A DNA stretch of 64,000 bases from NCBI RefSeq assembly GCF_025698545.1, contig NC_068571.1, positions 52,981,733 through 53,045,732 of the forward strand, read 5' to 3'. The notes beneath the pieces are model-generated. The model ran no database searches, had not been told where the DNA came from, and was given only the letters and a program-made list of their open reading frames with translations. The DNA comes from Gossypium raimondii. Lineage: Eukaryota > Streptophyta > Magnoliopsida > Malvales > Malvaceae. Below, in pieces: positions 7,390 to 57,978 of this stretch. Numbering within the stretch: the first letter of the stretch is position 1; each line of letters begins with the position of its first letter. Position numbers and translations under genes: made by a program.

Positions 7390-10386
7390 TCAAGACATAG
7401 AGTTCCCGCTATGATTTTGGCTATTTTTCTTTGTACTTCCCGTCTCGATTTCCCGAGTAGTTTGGCCTTCGGTCGAGCCGGAAGGGTATAAACCGTACTC
7501 GCTGGTCTGTTCACTGTACTCACTACTAGCACCGTATTCTAGCGAGCCTAATGCAGCCCTTCGGAGCCTTTTCATGTCTTCGTTGTAGTGGCTTGCATCA
7601 TAATCTGAGCTTCCTCCATATGAACTGTACACATTGCTTTGTCCCGGTCTCATTCCTTCGTTGAGATCCGATAACGACGATTCTCCTTCTAAAGCTCGTA
7701 CGATCTGTGCTCGGTTGCAAGTTACAGGTTAGAATCAAATAATGAGTGGAATGTAAAGAGTGGTGGCTCTAGACCCATTTACCTGGCTCATTCGTGGTCG
7801 ACGTCGTGCTGAATGTCGAACACAAGCAGCAGCACAAGCAACCATACGAGCCATCTCGTTGTGGTTATATTCCTTTTGTAACCTCGGATCGATGAGATTG
7901 TTGAATGTTCCGTCTTCTAATGCTCTTGAGAGTAATGGCCTAGCCTGCAATAGGCAAAGTAAGGTTTACTCGATAAAAAAGGATCCTAAAAAGCTTAAAC
8001 CAGTCCAAAGCAATAATAACTAACCCATTCGACCAAACTATCCTCGGCATAAGACGAGCCAACCGGTCTGTGTCCGCTAATCAACTCCAACAGCATGACC
8101 CCAAAAGAGAAAACATCCGATTTTTCCGTCAATTTTCCGCTCGAAGCATACTCGGGAGCCAAATACCTGGAACAATGAGAATACTAACATAAAATCACTT
8201 TTCTTGTGAACCAAGCAACAACAATGGATGAAGTCTTCTTACCCAAAAGTACCCATCACTCTTGTGGATACATGAGTGTTGACATCAGAAAAGAACTTTG
8301 CAAGTCCGAAATCGGCAACCTGAAAACCAAAGTTTATCGTTATCTCGATGAAGAAGTAGCAAGAGAAAAAAGCACATTCGCTCGAGCGAAGTGGGACGGT
8401 CACATAATCTAATTCATGGTTGAATGTTCAGCAATGTCAAGAAATCAAAATGACTGAAACCGATACCTTAGCCTCGAACTTGAAATCTAAAAGAATATTA
8501 GCCGCCTTAATATCGCGATGAATGATCTTAGGATTACCTGAAAAACCACGAAATCTGTTACTGAAAAAGATCGAGATCTTACTTCTAGAGCAAGTAAACA
8601 AGGGAGAGAGGCAATTAGCATACAATCCTCGTGAAGATATGCAAGTCCTTTTGCAGATCCTAAAGCAATTATCATCCTTGTTGGCCAATCCATTGTAGGT
8701 CTCCCTTTTCCTACAATTAGTACTCGATAATCGGTATTAGATCAATTTACCGGAAAGGTTCAAACATCAATTAGCATACAGTCAAAAGGCAGTCTTACCG
8801 TGCAAGTGAAACTCCAATGTGTTGTTCGGAACAAACTCATAAACAAGCATTCTTGTTGTCCCGGAGATACAGTATCCGACCAATGAAACAAGATGTTTGT
8901 GATGAACGCGGCTGATAATCTCGACTTCTGCTTGGAATTCTCTTTCCCCTTGTCCACTTCCGGCCTTAAGTTGCTTGACTGCAACTTCCGTTCCGGTTGG
9001 GAGAACTCCTCTGTGCACGTACCCGAAACCGCCTTGCCCAAGAAGGTTTGCATCGGAGAAGCCATCTGTTGCTCTTGCTAGTTCCTCATAAGTAAACTTG
9101 CTCTTGGTGAAACCAAGTGCAATGCCGGGTGAGGGTGGTGGAAGTGGATTTTCGGAACCTGAATTATTAGAACCGGAACCTCCACTACTGCTCATGAAAG
9201 GCGGTGGTGGTGGAGGTGGTGGCATTGATGGCATAGGAGAATCTTCCGGAGATGGTGGTCTCCATGCCGTAACTGGCGCAGTTGGATTAGGCAAAATTGC
9301 ACCGTATTGATCGACACGCGGTGGAGGATTTTGTGGCCACCGGTATTGTTGGCCACCGTGTGGATGATCTGAAAGAAAAAAAACATTTCAACAATCCGAT
9401 TTGACTCGAATCTAAAACTAACTTGAACTTAATCAACTAAACACAAAATGATTCAAATTGTAGACAATCCAAAACCAAGTAACTCGGAATCACCTGCAAA
9501 ATCACAATTCAAAATAATCCCTGCATGCAATGATCGGACACAAAAAACTACCAGAAATATCAAAGTGATCTTAACTCGAAATGATCAAAACTGACCCGAG
9601 CTGGAACGGATTGAATCAGAGATAATCCGAAATTGACTAGAATCAAAATTACTATAACTCCAGGGAAAAAGTCTGACCTTTAGGAGGCCCAGGAGGTGGA
9701 GGCGGCGGCGCGTAGTAAATTTCGCCGTCGTCTCTTCTTCTTCTCCTTTTCTTTTGACAACATATAAACAGCAAGCTCAAAACCAACAATATTGCCACTC
9801 CCCCTATTGCTATACCAATAACCAGTCCGGTCGATATACCACTGCTTGATGACGGTGGCGACGGAGGAGATGGAGTTCCTGAATTCCTCGAAGGAGGTGG
9901 TGGTGGAGATGGAGTACCTGGACTTCTCGGGGCAGGTGGCGATGGAGTTGACGTAGAAGGAGGTGTAAGAGAAGGGGTAGAGGATGGTGGTGGAGATGCT
10001 GCTTCTGAAGGTGGAGGAGATACAGATGATGTTGGAGGAGGCGATGAAGCGGAGGGGGAAGGAGTGTTGCTTGAAGGAGGAGCTGATGGGGTGGCTGGAG
10101 GTGGAGATGGGGTACCAGATGGCGGGGAGGGAGGACTAGTTGGCGGCGGAGCTGCTGCGGTTGGTGGTGGTGTAGAAGGAGTGTTAGTTGGCGGCGGAGT
10201 TGCTGCGGTTGGTGGTGGTGTGGCAGGAGTGGTAGTTGGCGGCGGAGTTGCGGTGGATGGCGGCGATTGGGAAGGAGGACTACTCGGCGGCGGAGCTCCG
10301 GCTGCAGATGGCGGTGGAGACGTAGTGTTTGTTGATGGTGGTGGTGATGACGGCGCTGGAGTCCCCCCTGGTGGTGGTGATGACAT
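7390..10386 (-). CDS. Proline-rich receptor-like protein kinase (PERK)
   Basis: Eight exons on the minus strand: 10386-9678, 9368-8799, 8710-8624, 8537-8467, 8319-8243, 8166-8025, 7944-7783, 7704-7390. They total 2133 nt and encode 710 residues. Residues 1-185 are a Pro/Ser/Thr-rich extracellular region (SPPP and TPPP motifs) without a signal peptide, as usual for PERKs. A membrane segment spans about 187-209, followed by a KKRRRRR stop-transfer stretch. The juxtamembrane part is again proline-rich. The kinase has the glycine loop GQGGFG (347-352), VAVK lysine K368, HRD at 462-464 in [11 protein letters not shown] starting at D482 and the GTFGYLAPEYA activation end, so it is an RD Ser/Thr kinase expected to be active. 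PERKs act at the plasma membrane and cell wall in growth and wall sensing. The Ser/Tyr/Gly-rich tail is 105 codons. Family is certain; the member is not named. Confidence 0.96.
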
Positions 10387-24003: not shown

Positions 24004-27000
24004 ATGGTTTCAGGCTCTCTCTCACTTATCTCATCTTCATTTCCTTCATACATTGATTCATCTCCCAATTCTGTTTCTTTTTGGCCTATAACGTTTAAGC
24101 TCTTTAAACCCAATCCCAGATTCTCAAAATCTCTCAAATACCCATCGTCGAAGCTTTCTTGTTGTTCTTCAACAGTCGAAGATGGGTCGTCGTCGTCCAC
24201 GACGGCGGAGCAGTTTTTTAACAACAATTCGATAGCGGATTTCATGAGGTTTAAGAGAGGGAGTCAAAACGGTAGTGGCGAGTTACAAACGGCTATTGTT
24301 AGCTATCGTAAGAGGTTCCCTTGGTCTATTCTTTACCCTTTTCTTCGGGTACTGATACCACTATCGAGCTTTTGTTTCTAAATTATGCATTGCTTTCATA
24401 GAAGAATCAATTTTCAGGTTTCTAATTCTGGGTTTTTTTTTTTTTTGAATTTGATGTTTTCAGGTTGATTTGGTCTCAACGATTCATATTGCCGATACAG
24501 AGTATGTTTGGTTGAATTCAAACATAGAAATTTTTTTATGAGATTACAAGTGATTTAAGTTTTGTTTTTTTGTTCATGATTATGTGTTTTGAATGGAGGG
24601 TTGTCATTTGGTTATCTGGTTTTAGTTTATTTCAATTTTACTAGGAATGCGGATCGGTTCGGTACGAGGAACGGAAATCGGAACACAAATCGTTACTTAT
24701 ATGACACATTATTCGACAGGGGATAGTCTAATAGGAATGAAATGCGATTCATCAGTTTGAATTTATACATATAGCTTTTGTGTTTATATAATCGAGTCCT
24801 TGGTTATTTGGTTTTAGTTTATTTCAATGTTACTAGGAATGCTGATCGGTTCGGTACGAGGAGCAAAAATCGGAACACAACTTATATAACACCTTATTCG
24901 ACAGGGGATAGTCTAATAGGAACTCAATACGATTCATCCGTTTGAATTTATACATATAGCTTTTGAGTTTATATAATCGGAGTCCTCGGTTATCTGGTTT
25001 TAGTTTATTTCAATGTTACTTTCAACAATTGTTTTCTAATCACTATTATTAAATATGTTTATCGGTTCGGTATGAGGAACGGAAATTGGAATGCGAGTGG
25101 TTGTTTATAGGAAACCTTATTCGGTAGGGCATAGTCTAATAGGAACAAAATACGATTCGTCGGTTTGAATCTATATATATAGCTTTTGTGTTTATATAAT
25201 CGAATCGTTAGTCATACTGAATTGGATTGCTATTGTTCATTGATTTTCTTGATTATGTATTTTGAATGGAGGGTTGTCATTGGATCGGTTCGGTATGAGG
25301 AACGCAAATGGTTACTTATATGAATCCTTATTCGATAGGGATAGTCTAATAGGAATGAAATACGACTCATCGGTTTGAATGTATACATATAGCTTTTGTG
25401 TTTATATAATCGAATCGTTAATCATACTGAATTGGATTGCTATTGTTCCATGATTTTCATGATTATGTACTTTGAATGGAGGGTTGTCATTGGATCAGTT
25501 CCGTATGAGGAATGGATATTTAAACGCAAATGGTTACTTATAGGAAACCTTATTTGATTGGGATAGTCTAATAGGAATGAATACAAATCATCGGTTCGAA
25601 TGTCTACATATAGCTTTTGTGTTTGTATAATCGAATCGTTAGTCATACTGAATTGGATTGCTGTTGTTCCGTGATGTTTATGAGATTACAAGTGATTTTC
25701 ATGTATTTTGAATGGAGGGTTGCCATTGGATCGGTTCTGTACGAGGAATGGAAATTGAAATGCAAATGGTTACTTATACGACACCTTATTCAATAGGGAT
25801 AGTCTTATAGGAACGAAATATGATTCATTGGTTTGAATCTATACATATATCTTTTGTGTTTATATAATCGAATCGTTAGTCATACTGAATTGGATTGCTA
25901 TTGTTTCGTGATTTTTATGAGATTACAAGTGATTTTCATGATTATGTATTTTGAATGGAGGGTTGTCATTGGATTGGTTTGGTACGAGGAACAGAAATTG
26001 AAATGCAAATAGTTACTTATATGAAACCTTATTTGATAGGGGTTAGTCTAATAGGAACGAAATACGATTCATCGTTTGATTTTATACATATAGCTTGTGT
26101 TTATATAATCGAATTGTTAGTCATACTGAATTGGATTGCTATTTTTCCGTGATTTTTCAAGATTATTTATTTTGAATGGAGGGTTGTCATTGGATCGGTT
26201 CGGTATGGCAAACAGAAAGTGGAACACAATGGTTATATGAAACCTTATTCGATAGGGATAGTCTAATAGGAACGAAATACGATTCGTCGGTTTGAATGTA
26301 TGCATGTAGCTTTTGTATTTATATAATTGAATCGTTAGTCATACTGAATTGGATTGCTATTGTTCTGTGATCGGGATTGTACGGTTTGTGAATTGTTTGT
26401 GTTGTTCTATAATTCGGGTTTCGGTTTTGCGTGCCTACATGAAGAATGATTAGAACATGTTAAAGATGAGAGTACTTTTGTCTTCTTAATATCTCATTCG
26501 GAACCTTTGTTGGAGTGTAGCGGATTGAGTTCGCACGCTCTGACAATTTCCTTGTGCTTGTGTGGCTAAAATGTTCGGTTTTCTTGTACCGACTTTGCTA
26601 TGTATGGATTTTCCTGATTAAATTGGTGACTGCAGGTACTTTGAGACTCTTCAGAAGGAACTTGCACCATATGATTGTGTTCTGTATGAGATGGTTGCTA
26701 GTAGGGAGAGTTTGGAAAACCGAAGGAACCCTTCGGCAGCAAAACGACTCAAAAGTTCACGATCACGAGGTTTCAACATTCTGGGATGCATTCAACGGCA
26801 GATGGCTCGGATACTCATGCTCAATTTCCAATTAGATTGTCTCGATTACCAGGCTGATAATTGGTACCACGCAGATCTTGACTATGAGACCTTCAAGTTA
26901 CTTCAGGTACGATAAAAGTCTGAGGTCGTCAACTTTATTTTCAGCTGTAAACATCATGCTTCTACATCTAATGTTTCGAATATGATTTTATCCAGCTAGA

Positions 27001-54215: not shown

Positions 54216-57200
54216 ATGCTGGACGGAATCTTAGGCCGTGGTTTTGCCACAAAATGGTTTATACATTTTTCTCTTTAATTAATTGATTTTTTTTTTGTTT
54301 TAGATGATTGAATTGATGTGAAGAATTTTTGGTTTTCTTGCAGTAAATCGTTGATAAAAGCGATAAAGAGTCGGATTGATGTTATACGGAGGAAAAAGAG
54401 TGCGACGCTTAAGTTTTTGAAGAAAGATATAGCTGATCTGCTTGCTAATGGCCTTGATATCAATGCTTATGGCAGAGTAAGTTTTTGAAAAAAAAAATAT
54501 TATTACTGTTTTATACTGATATATTCTGCTAATTTTGATTTATATGTAGTTTTATTGATTTAATTTTTGAGCAAGATTACTAGCGGAATGGTAAGGTTTA
54601 TGATTTGCATATGTACATATATATAAGCAGATTTGTTTGAATATGTAAAAATGTTATGCTTTGTTTTACTAATTACATAAAATTTATGGACGTGAAAATG
54701 ATTGATGTGTTGATTTTGGTGGTGAAACAGGTTGAAGGATATATAGCTGAATTAGTGCTTTCGTCTTGCTATGATTTTATAGACAAGTGTTGCGATTTCG
54801 TGACGAAGCATGTTTCAGTCATGCAAAAACTGAGGTATAAGTGGATGTTTTGTTTATTTCTTGTTCAATACAATCAATTCTTTATAATGGTTGCGTTTGT
54901 ATTTCAATGGCTACTCATGGTAGGCTTTTCTATTGGTATATTTCTGTGAAAATATAGGTAGTAGTAAAGGAAAAATTGAAGTTATGAAAATGAGTGGTCC
55001 TGAAGTTGATAATTAAAATTTGGATAATGCCATCCCTAGTGCCATCTGTTGGCAATAGCATTAGGCTTCGGTGTTCTCTGGGTTTCAAATGATAGTTCAA
55101 GCTACTTTTAGCTCCATGTAAGATTTGATTGTCATTCTTCTTTGTGGACCACTTCCTGTTTTTTCATCTTCTTGTATGGTATCAAGAGATTGTTACACTT
55201 TTGATGTTAAGTTCAATTTGAGGATGAATGGAGGTTCAAATTGAGTTTAGAGAATACTTAAGGATAAGGGTTGAATAAAGTATTTGAAATTGTAATTGCT
55301 TAAAGGTTTTTTGTTCAATGTCTGCTAAAGAAAATATTGAAATTTCTCTTTCTTTACCATGGTGAATTAAAGATTTTCTCATGATGAGATTGTTGCTCTG
55401 GATCCGGAAGAGATTCCCGTATGCCTTCATTTTAAGGATTGTGGAGCGCTGTGTAACGTATAGATGGTATCTTGGAACTATAGGAAACACAAGATGGATT
55501 AGAAGTTTTCTGGTTATACATTTTCTTTCTTTTATTTTATTGTTGTGAACTTTTATTGTTTGTTTTCTTGAAATTTGTCATTAAGAAGCTGATTAAAACA
55601 ACAGTTGCTTATTTTTCATAATAAATGCATACAGTGATTGCCCAGAAGATTGCAGGGAAGCTGTCTCATCTCTAATGTTTGCAGCTGCTAGATTTTCTGA
55701 TTTGCCAGAGTTGCGTGAGCTTAGGCATATATTTCATGAAAGATATGAAAATTCACTGGACGTATTCGCCAATAAACAGGTAAATTTCCAGTCATGATCC
55801 ACTCCAAAAGGAGAATATTTATGGTTCCATTCGCTGCATTTCTATGACAAATGTTGTAAATTTTCATGGTAGCTTGTTGAGAATTCAGCTTCAAATCCTT
55901 CCACAATGGAGAGGAAAGTTATGGTAATGCATGATATAGCATCAGAGTTTTCCATAAAATGGGATTCAAAAGCTTTCGAGCGAAGAATGTCTGAACCTGT
56001 TGTGATCCCACAGCCACAGGTATCCCTTGTGTTTGATCTCTACTTGCCTAATTGCCTCTTCGCATTGGAACTCTTCTGATCTCTGCAACTTTTCTCCAGG
56101 ACCGAACTAAAAAATACGGGTCTTTCCATGTCAATGGTGAAGATAATAAATCAAATTATGGAAAACAGGTATCCTCGTGTTTGATCTTTACTTGCCTGAT
56201 CGCATCTTCACACTGAAACTCTTCTGATCTCTGTAATTGTTCTCTAGGACCGACTTAAAAAATACGGGTCTTTCCATGTCAATGGTGATGATAATAAATC
56301 AAATGATGGAAAACAGGTATCACTCGTGTTTGATCTTTACTTGCTTGATTGCCTCTTCATACTGAAACTCTTCTGATCTCTGTAATTGTTCTCTAGGACC
56401 GACTTAAAAAATACGGGTCTTTCCATGTCAATGGTGATGATAATAAATCAAATGATGGAAAACAGGTATCCCTCGTGTTTGATCTTTACTTGCCTGATTG
56501 CCTCTTCACACTGGAACACTTCTGATCTCTGTAATTGTTCTCTAGGACCGACTTAAAAAGTACGGGTCTTTCCATGTCAATGGTGATGATAATAAATCAA
56601 ATGATGGAAAACAGGTATCCCTCGTGTTTGCACTTTACTTGTCTGATTATCTCTTCACACTGGAACTCTTCTAATCTCTGTAAGTGTTCTCTAGGACCGA
56701 CCTAAAAAATACGGGTCTTTCCATGTCAATGGTGATGATAATAAATCAAACGATGGAAAAAGTGCTGATCCACCAAGGGATGAACTTAAAGTGGATAAGA
56801 ATGGGCACAAGTGGGAATTCTCCGTCGAGGACAAGCTGCGTCAAGGCAGGGAAGAAGCTTTTGCAAGGAGGGAGAATCTTGATATCCCATTACCGCAAAA
56901 ACAAGAAGTTGTCGAGAAGGATGATATTGCCTTCAAAACAGCAAGATTAAGTAGTTCGACTAGTGGGAAAAGAATCGAAAGAGTAAATGGTGGAGGCAAG
57001 GTACAAGATGGTAGGGAGAATAGTGTACCTGGAATAGATAACCAAGATGTTCTAACACAGAGAAAGCCGGATCTAAATCCAAATAACTATGCAGCTCCAC
57101 GGTCAAGGAGTCAAGATAAAGATCTCTTCGTCCCCGATAGTTATGCCAATGAGTATGGTGTCCAGAATTCAACTAGGAAAACTCCCGTGGAAGGTGAACC

Positions 57201-57978
57201 CAAGCGGAAGCCCCGGTCTAGTAGTGCTCTCCCTCCTCCTTATGTTAAACCACCCAGTATCAAATCAAAGGAGAGCATGAATGGTGCCAATATATTGTCT
57301 TCACTTGCTGGTTTGGACAGTGATGGAGTCTCTGGTGATCCTTCTATGCCTGATAAAGAGGGGCAGAGAATTCCACCTATGAGAGGTCATGATCGAGAAA
57401 CAGATAATTACTATAGTCACAGTGAAATTGGTATCCCTATCCCAAGACGAAGATCGTCTCGGAGGCGACATTTGAGATCAGCATCTGGTCATATTGAAAT
57501 TGGTAATGCTGAAGATACAGAATTCATGAGGAGAAAACCAAGAAGCAGGAGAAGGGATGAGTCGAGACAAGGTCTGCAAATCTTATTCGACGAAGAGCAT
57601 CAAAGATATGATCAGGAGGAAAGGATAATCGATAGGCTGTTGATGCATTATAGTAAGAAACCATCAACCTCTGAAGACGGGAAACTAAGACGAAAATCTA
57701 AAAGTCATCATGCACATCATAAGAGAACTGACGTAGATGAAGAAGCCTTAGAAAAAGCAAGCATGGATAGATCGGATGATATCTCCGAGACTATTCCCCG
57801 TCCAGTCCGATCAATTTCTCTCCCTCGTGAACAAACAACTCAATCAGAAGGAACTAAAGTATACACCCGCGCTACTTCCTTTCAGCAAGGTAGGTCAAAT
57901 GCAGCCCGGCACGTACACCCTAAGTTACCGGATTACGATGATTTGGCTGCTCACTTTGCAGCAATGAAAGGGAGATAA
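54216..57978 (+). CDS. IST1-like protein (ESCRT-III / Vps4 regulator)
   Basis: Ten exons: 54216-54256, 54344-54476, 54731-54834, 55635-55779, 55873-56019, 56100-56168, 56248-56316, 56397-56465, 56546-56614, 56695-57978. They encode 709 residues. Residues 1-175 are the IST1 helical domain: CKSLIKAIKSRIDVIRRKK, AYGRVEGYIAELVLSSCYDF, LPELRELRHIFHERY. Yeast and animal IST1 binds CHMP1/Did2 and Vps4 in multivesicular-body sorting; plant IST1-like proteins are thought to do the same at endosomes. Exons 6-9 and the start of exon 10 are five near-identical 23-codon copies of DRxKKYGSFHVNG and its tail (residues about 191-305). The long last exon encodes a charged, disordered tail with WEFSVEDKLRQGREEAFARR, RRRSSRRRHLRS and a C-terminal YDDLAAHFAAMKGR. 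Exon 1 uses donor GTTTAT. All repeated exons are phase 0. Confidence 0.93.
56020..56763 (+). repeat. Five-unit tandem intron+exon cassette, 148-149 bp
   Basis: Five units follow one another: 56020-56168, 56169-56316, 56317-56465, 56466-56614 and 56615-56763. Each is a 79-80-bp GT-AG intron followed by a 69-bp exon copy. The first four exon copies end in their own donor; the fifth runs on into the large last exon. Unit 1 is the most diverged (GTATCCCTTGTG intron; exon with ACT, GAA and TAT codon changes). Units 2-4 encode identical peptides, and unit 4 differs from 2 and 3 by a silent AAA/AAG change. Confidence 0.97.

Follow-up and report, generated by a model that had tools for sequence, protein, structure and literature searches.

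Tandem duplications that carry introns along with coding sequence, or that create them, are known from several genes. Here, we describe an array of this type in an IST1-like gene of the cotton Gossypium raimondii, located in a stretch of 64,000 nucleotides (RefSeq assembly GCF_025698545.1, contig NC_068571.1, here C7, positions 52,981,733 to 53,045,732 of the forward strand) that is called the window in the following. In human LPA the repeated KIV-2 unit holds exons and introns. Like the cotton array it is a coding tandem unit, and the number of units sets the length of the LPA isoform (PMC6314250, PMC11462820), but in LPA kringle domains are repeated whereas the cotton array comprises five units of 149 bp, each encoding a disordered-looking peptide of 23 residues. 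In the potato RdRp gene a tandem duplication across an intron/exon boundary gave rise to a new intron together with an exonic segment (PMC4974935). According to the parts of this source that describe the event, the two cases agree in that the host is a plant gene and that branch site, tract and acceptor come from the parental intron. They differ in that the potato gene contains two copies and uses a cryptic exonic site as its new donor, whereas in cotton an authentic donor and the preceding CAG were copied and five units are present. Finally, in human genes within segmental duplications exonic or exon–intron-boundary minisatellites change the coding length or create introns and differ between paralogues, whereas in cotton a whole pre-existing intron is part of each unit (PMC2812944). 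Among the literature matches listed (titles and the beginnings of abstracts, Gossypium terms included) no earlier description of the cotton array was found. The array clearly illustrates a mode of gene growth that is already known and does not represent a new kind of system; what it adds is a small five-copy case in which both the founding junction and a single-copy relative are visible.

IST1 proteins act together with LIP5 and VPS4/SKD1, and proteins of endosomal sorting complex required for transport (ESCRT)-III bind MIT domains via MIT-interacting motifs (MIMs; reviewed in PMC12051064). The plant ISTL proteins, 12 of which are found in Arabidopsis (e.g., ISTL1), are regulators with an IST1 domain like the cotton protein; the passages of this review devoted to them mention no intron–exon cassette repeats, which are a feature of the cotton gene.

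An intron–exon cassette in five copies

The product of the modelled gene (Table 1) has no internal stop in its 709 residues and matches Pfam Ist1 (PF03398) at residues 15–169 with an E value of 6.7e-40 (137.1 bits versus a cut-off of 33.6). Among PDB sequences phmmer returned eight distinct chains at E <= 1, six of them named IST1 or Increased Sodium Tolerance 1 and two KIAA0174. The initial annotation, which was made from the letters of the window, had already called the gene IST1-like and had placed the repeats between the IST1 domain and the tail; both assignments agree with these results, the repeats occupying residues 191–305.

Only one assembly of G. raimondii (750.8 Mb) is covered here. 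Tandem Repeats Finder (TRF) describes the array (56016–56760) with a period of 149, 5.0 copies, 93% matches, 0% indels and a score of 1266, and just two TRF rows within the window score higher, both from a different array near 25–26 kb. Five head-to-tail units of about 149 nt occupy positions 56020–56763 and each consists of a complete intron and a 69-nt coding part with splice sites. GT and AG border all five introns and the frame is open in all five coding parts, in accordance with the head-to-tail intron-plus-exon cassette that had been proposed at the outset; the 80-bp intron assumed for each module is found in units 1, 3, 4 and 5, while copy 2 has 79 nt. Units 2–4 encode the identical 23-residue peptide. 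The fifth coding copy is part of the terminal exon (1284 nt), of which it forms the first 69 nt, and therefore there are only four skippable cassette exons instead of five: each of these phase-0 exons can be added, removed or skipped without loss of the frame, and the fifth copy is tied to the head of the terminal exon.

That the array is an assembly artefact and the real genome contains fewer units appears very improbable. It is true that a single assembly was examined, but no intron sequence is common to any two units, the pairwise differences being 4–15 of 79–80 nt. A mobile element or intron family was also considered and rejected. Genome search with the 149-nt unit (in which only the best candidates are scored and very common words are passed over) located it at six places, namely the five units and one paralogous gene on contig C6.

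This C6 gene is a full paralogue with 425 of 609 aligned residues identical if cassette exons 1–4 of the C7 gene are left out (Ks, the synonymous divergence, 0.51; Ka, the nonsynonymous divergence, 0.17). We take a Ks near 0.5 to be consistent with the old cotton polyploidy. The paralogue has an open frame and a single copy of the unit, which encodes the peptide DQPKSYGSSHVNGHNHKSKDGR at the beginning of the terminal exon; the last intron of 105 nt has the same position and phase as in the C7 gene. The gene after the IST1-like gene on C7 finds its best other match at C6:9050811-9051386, i.e. downstream of the C6 paralogue and in the same orientation, so that the two regions look syntenic as judged from this neighbour; its distance to the IST1 gene is about 17 kb on C6 versus 1.6 kb in the window. 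In total, 37 fragments were grouped into 16 IST1 loci of the genome, and the tail exon was read in five of them (C7, C6, C5, C9 and C2). By eye, an intron is present after the corresponding exon in the C5 and C2 paralogues, too. We regard the single copy as the presumably older state, a polarity that is based on one relative within the genome.

Origin and growth of the unit

The junctions reveal from which pieces the unit was built (a slash marks the splice boundary). Exon 5 ends with CCACAG/GTATCC and the terminal copy runs GATGGAAAAAGTGCTG, whereas all four internal copies end with ATGGAAAACAG/GTATC; their junction GGAAAACAG/GTATC corresponds to GGAAA(A) of the terminal exon plus (A)CAG of exon 5. 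The repeated segment thus extends from the three nucleotides CAG preceding the donor to nucleotide 66 of the terminal exon; one further A may come from either side. Since this junction is identical in 4/4 internal copies it points to one founding duplication, and since 66 and 3 nt add up to 69 nt the new exon has phase 0 and keeps the frame. Very probably, the founding unit thus consisted of the final CAG of exon 5, the last intron and the adjoining 66 nt of the terminal exon. The idea of a duplicated exon, as put forward in the initial annotation, has to be given up in view of these junctions and of the single-copy C6 paralogue, which indicate a unit assembled from two exons. Classical exon duplication was rejected for the same reason: 66 nt of the terminal exon and 3 nt of exon 5 correspond to no whole ancestral exon.

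We propose that the segment between the final CAG of exon 5 and nucleotide 66 of the terminal exon, including the intron that separates them, was duplicated in tandem within the gene in a single event. With the copy would have come an intact donor context (CAG/GT), an acceptor and a branch-like site, and a phase-0 cassette exon would have resulted immediately. The units could then have multiplied to five by unequal exchange in register; this mode of growth is what we infer from the array. Relative to a single-copy gene, the repeats would add 92 residues to the disordered and probably flexible linker that connects the IST1 core to the MIM1-like C-terminus. Set beside the single-copy C6 paralogue, the case demonstrates how a working exon can arise by one tandem duplication from pieces, i.e. 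a few nucleotides before a donor, an intron and a stretch of the next exon with a length that is a multiple of three.

Identical peptides in the middle copies had initially been understood as a sign of recent unequal exchange. The identity itself is confirmed but does not suffice for recency, because the introns of the same copies (2–4) differ pairwise in 4–6 of 79–80 nt (coding parts: 0–1 of 66), which rules out recency as the sole reading. With a Jukes–Cantor distance to the C6 intron of 0.33–0.35 as a yardstick, the middle copies reach 0.16–0.22 (bootstrap limits between 0.05 and 0.41) and copy 1 versus the rest 0.51–0.56 (limits between 0.27 and 0.95), these ratios being derived from 79 sites and liable to be lowered by gene conversion. 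Apparently, the array started well back in the time since the C7 and C6 paralogues split, and the last exchanges were probably not very recent. As introns and exons are found in the same units, the array contains its own clock, with which effects of recent origin and of selection can be told apart more easily.

Constraint, splicing and the role of the repeats

For the divergence tests the first 66 of the 69 coding nucleotides were used and gapped intron columns were left out; the one-base gap in intron 2 was tested in three placements and results are given as ranges. Over all five units the coding sites have changed less than the intron sites, with 6/66 variable versus 21–23/79 (Fisher P 0.003–0.0095), and variable nonsynonymous sites (4/53) are likewise rarer than variable intron sites (P 0.004–0.006). 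The repeat peptides look constrained over the whole array, near the level of the rest of the tail, for which comparison of the C7 and C6 genes yields Ka 0.22 and Ks 0.60. Hence the likeness of the peptides need not reflect youth alone.

The five acceptors read (C or T)AG/GAC, and each of the five introns of the array contains CTGAT or CTAAT with 20 nt after its A. The donors (5/5) read CAG/GTATC(C or A). If any of the five introns is retained a stop is reached after 15–19 codons and therefore only spliced forms keep the frame and the tail. Inclusion of the four 69-nt exons in the mRNA is, as judged from the gene model, highly probable. An RNA structure that steers exon choice was rejected as a candidate, the minimum free energy being no better than that of shuffled sequences (z +1.15; equalled or bettered by 18 of 20 shuffles).

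Taken as a whole, the account given here (founding duplication, unequal exchange, exons that are spliced in and a longer disordered linker) has in our opinion a probability of roughly 0.6. Several observations weigh against it. The donors of the array lack G at +5 (the C6 paralogue has GTATGC) and splicing could be leaky, and inclusion of the cassette exons is a prediction of the gene model. In the 105-nt intron of the C6 paralogue no CTRAY was found and the branch-like site may be non-ancestral. Synteny of both regions rests on one neighbour, and bootstrap values in the tree of units are weak (58–77%). Furthermore, the constraint tests rest on few sites: variable synonymous sites (2/13) show no difference from the intron (P 0.50–0.51), in the middle copies both the nonsynonymous sites (0/53 versus intron 6–8/79, P 0.02–0.08) and all coding sites (1/66 versus 6–8/79, P 0.04–0.13) give borderline results, and copies 1 and 2 differ by 4 coding changes that are all nonsynonymous. 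Support for the linker function is indirect.

As to this function, the repeats are strongly hydrophilic and lie on the disordered side of the charge–hydropathy line (0.28 versus the boundary of 0.432). At the C-terminus DDLAAHFAAMKGR resembles the MIM1 motif and is a candidate MIM; the complete C-terminal segment LPDYDDLAAHFAAMKGR had no match among PDB sequences at E <= 10. We see about an even chance that the main role of the repeats is that of a linker or spacer.

Somewhat less favoured but quite possible is that the array is a neutral passenger in a length-tolerant disordered region where neither length nor sequence matters. The loose overall evolution of the tail (see above) and the borderline constraint test of the middle copies would fit, as would the C6 gene that keeps an open frame with one unit. 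Moreover, a distant paralogue on contig C2 (C2:13103500-13110500) was expanded as well: the head of its terminal exon, i.e. the same part of the gene, carries a duplication of its own (140 columns, 77.9% identical, E 2.4e-28) with a spacing of 159 nt, again a multiple of three. As this duplication arose there on its own account, the terminal exon head seems to tolerate or favour lengthening, which would agree with a spacer as well. On the other hand, coding sites vary less than intron sites over the five copies, and frames and GT/AG are intact in all five units; ordinary weak constraint against frameshifts and stops would account for these findings only in part. Self-comparison of four terminal exon proteins by blastp gave no match, including that of C2 with its clear DNA repeat, and is hence uninformative.

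It is rather doubtful that each 23-residue unit with the core DRxKKYGSFHVNG binds a partner and that five copies raise avidity, a multiplication of a binding motif that had been suggested initially. All five copies share the unaltered core, part of which is also present in the C6 paralogue (DQPKSYGSSHVNG), and the middle copies have accumulated no nonsynonymous change at 53 sites. Nevertheless, the suggestion finds no support, since the repeat peptide has no match among PDB sequences at E <= 10 and, by eye, the terminal exon heads of three more distant IST1 paralogues contain no recognisable copy; the repeat also does not resemble the MIM pattern. Similarly unlikely is an adjustable cassette, in which leaky donors lead to skipping of none to four 69-nt exons and/or the number of units differs among plants, so that a protein would contain between one and five repeats. 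In its favour are the four 69-nt exons in phase 0, the similar introns, donors without G at +5 and the early stops in retained introns (only spliced forms being in frame), but the ordinary RNA structure gives no sign of structure-controlled exon choice and the diverged introns give none of a very recent change in length. Should unit number or splicing turn out to vary, the gene would provide naturally occurring linkers of different lengths in an ESCRT regulator. Still more improbable is the far-reaching version of a live coding minisatellite with its own splice signals, in which unit numbers that vary among cottons together with leaky splicing would provide graded IST1 linkers of one to five 23-residue repeats and would tune the coupling of the core to C-terminal LIP5/VPS4 binding.

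Coordinates and further observations

Table 1. Features of the IST1-like gene on contig C7 (positions within the window; a slash in sequences marks the splice boundary).
Feature	Positions	Strand	Basis
IST1-like gene, 10-exon coding model, 709 residues	54216..57978	+	open frame, GT/AG at 9/9 junctions; model from sequence alone
IST1 (ESCRT-III-like) domain, residues 15-169, exons 2-5	54345..55956	+	Pfam PF03398; phmmer to PDB chains named IST1
Exon 5; last 3 nt (CAG) probable source of 3' end of four cassette exons	55873..56019	+	junction comparison
Intron copy 1 (80 nt)	56020..56099	+	CAG/GTATCC...CTCCAG/GAC; CTGAT, 20 nt after its A
Cassette exon 1, DRTKKYGSFHVNGEDNKSNYGKQ	56100..56168	+	unit extraction, gene model
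Intron copy 2 (79 nt)	56169..56247	+	unit extraction, junctions
Cassette exon 2, DRLKKYGSFHVNGDDNKSNDGKQ	56248..56316	+	unit extraction, gene model
Intron copy 3 (80 nt)	56317..56396	+	unit extraction, junctions
Cassette exon 3, nucleotides identical to cassette exon 2	56397..56465	+	unit extraction, gene model
Intron copy 4 (80 nt)	56466..56545	+	unit extraction, junctions
Cassette exon 4, peptide as exon 2, one synonymous change	56546..56614	+	unit extraction, gene model
Intron copy 5 (80 nt), at the site where the C6 paralogue has its one last intron	56615..56694	+	paralogue comparison
Fifth coding copy, terminal exon head, DRPKKYGSFHVNGDDNKSNDGKS; CCT (Pro) common to C6 paralogue	56695..56763	+	
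Terminal exon, 1284 nt, disordered-looking tail	56695..57978	+	gene model; charge-hydropathy
C-terminal LPDYDDLAAHFAAMKGR, MIM1-like	57925..57975	+	related C-termini in C6, C5, C9 and C2 paralogues (tblastn)

Another IST1 paralogue, on contig C9, carries a tandem duplication of 87 nt in two copies with 97% identity (positions 1403–1577 of the locus). Situated between the first and the later exon matches it is probably intronic; exon boundaries of this gene were judged by eye.

Elsewhere in the window, region 24608–26371 is occupied by large tandem arrays with periods of about 185–237 nt and TRF scores up to 1326, and the listing of open reading frames (ORFs) contains none of at least 110 residues there. 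On the minus strand a proline-rich ORF with a 48-nt tandem repeat (9652–10386) is followed by a kinase-like ORF (8782–9294), and the pair resembles a proline-rich receptor-like kinase. Outside the window, a cluster of terpene synthase matches was seen on C5 near 54.05–54.31 Mb; one exon matches PDB entry 3g4d, (+)-delta-cadinene synthase XC1 of Gossypium arboreum, in 86 of 90 residues, in line with a diploid cotton genome, and a second exon is less close.
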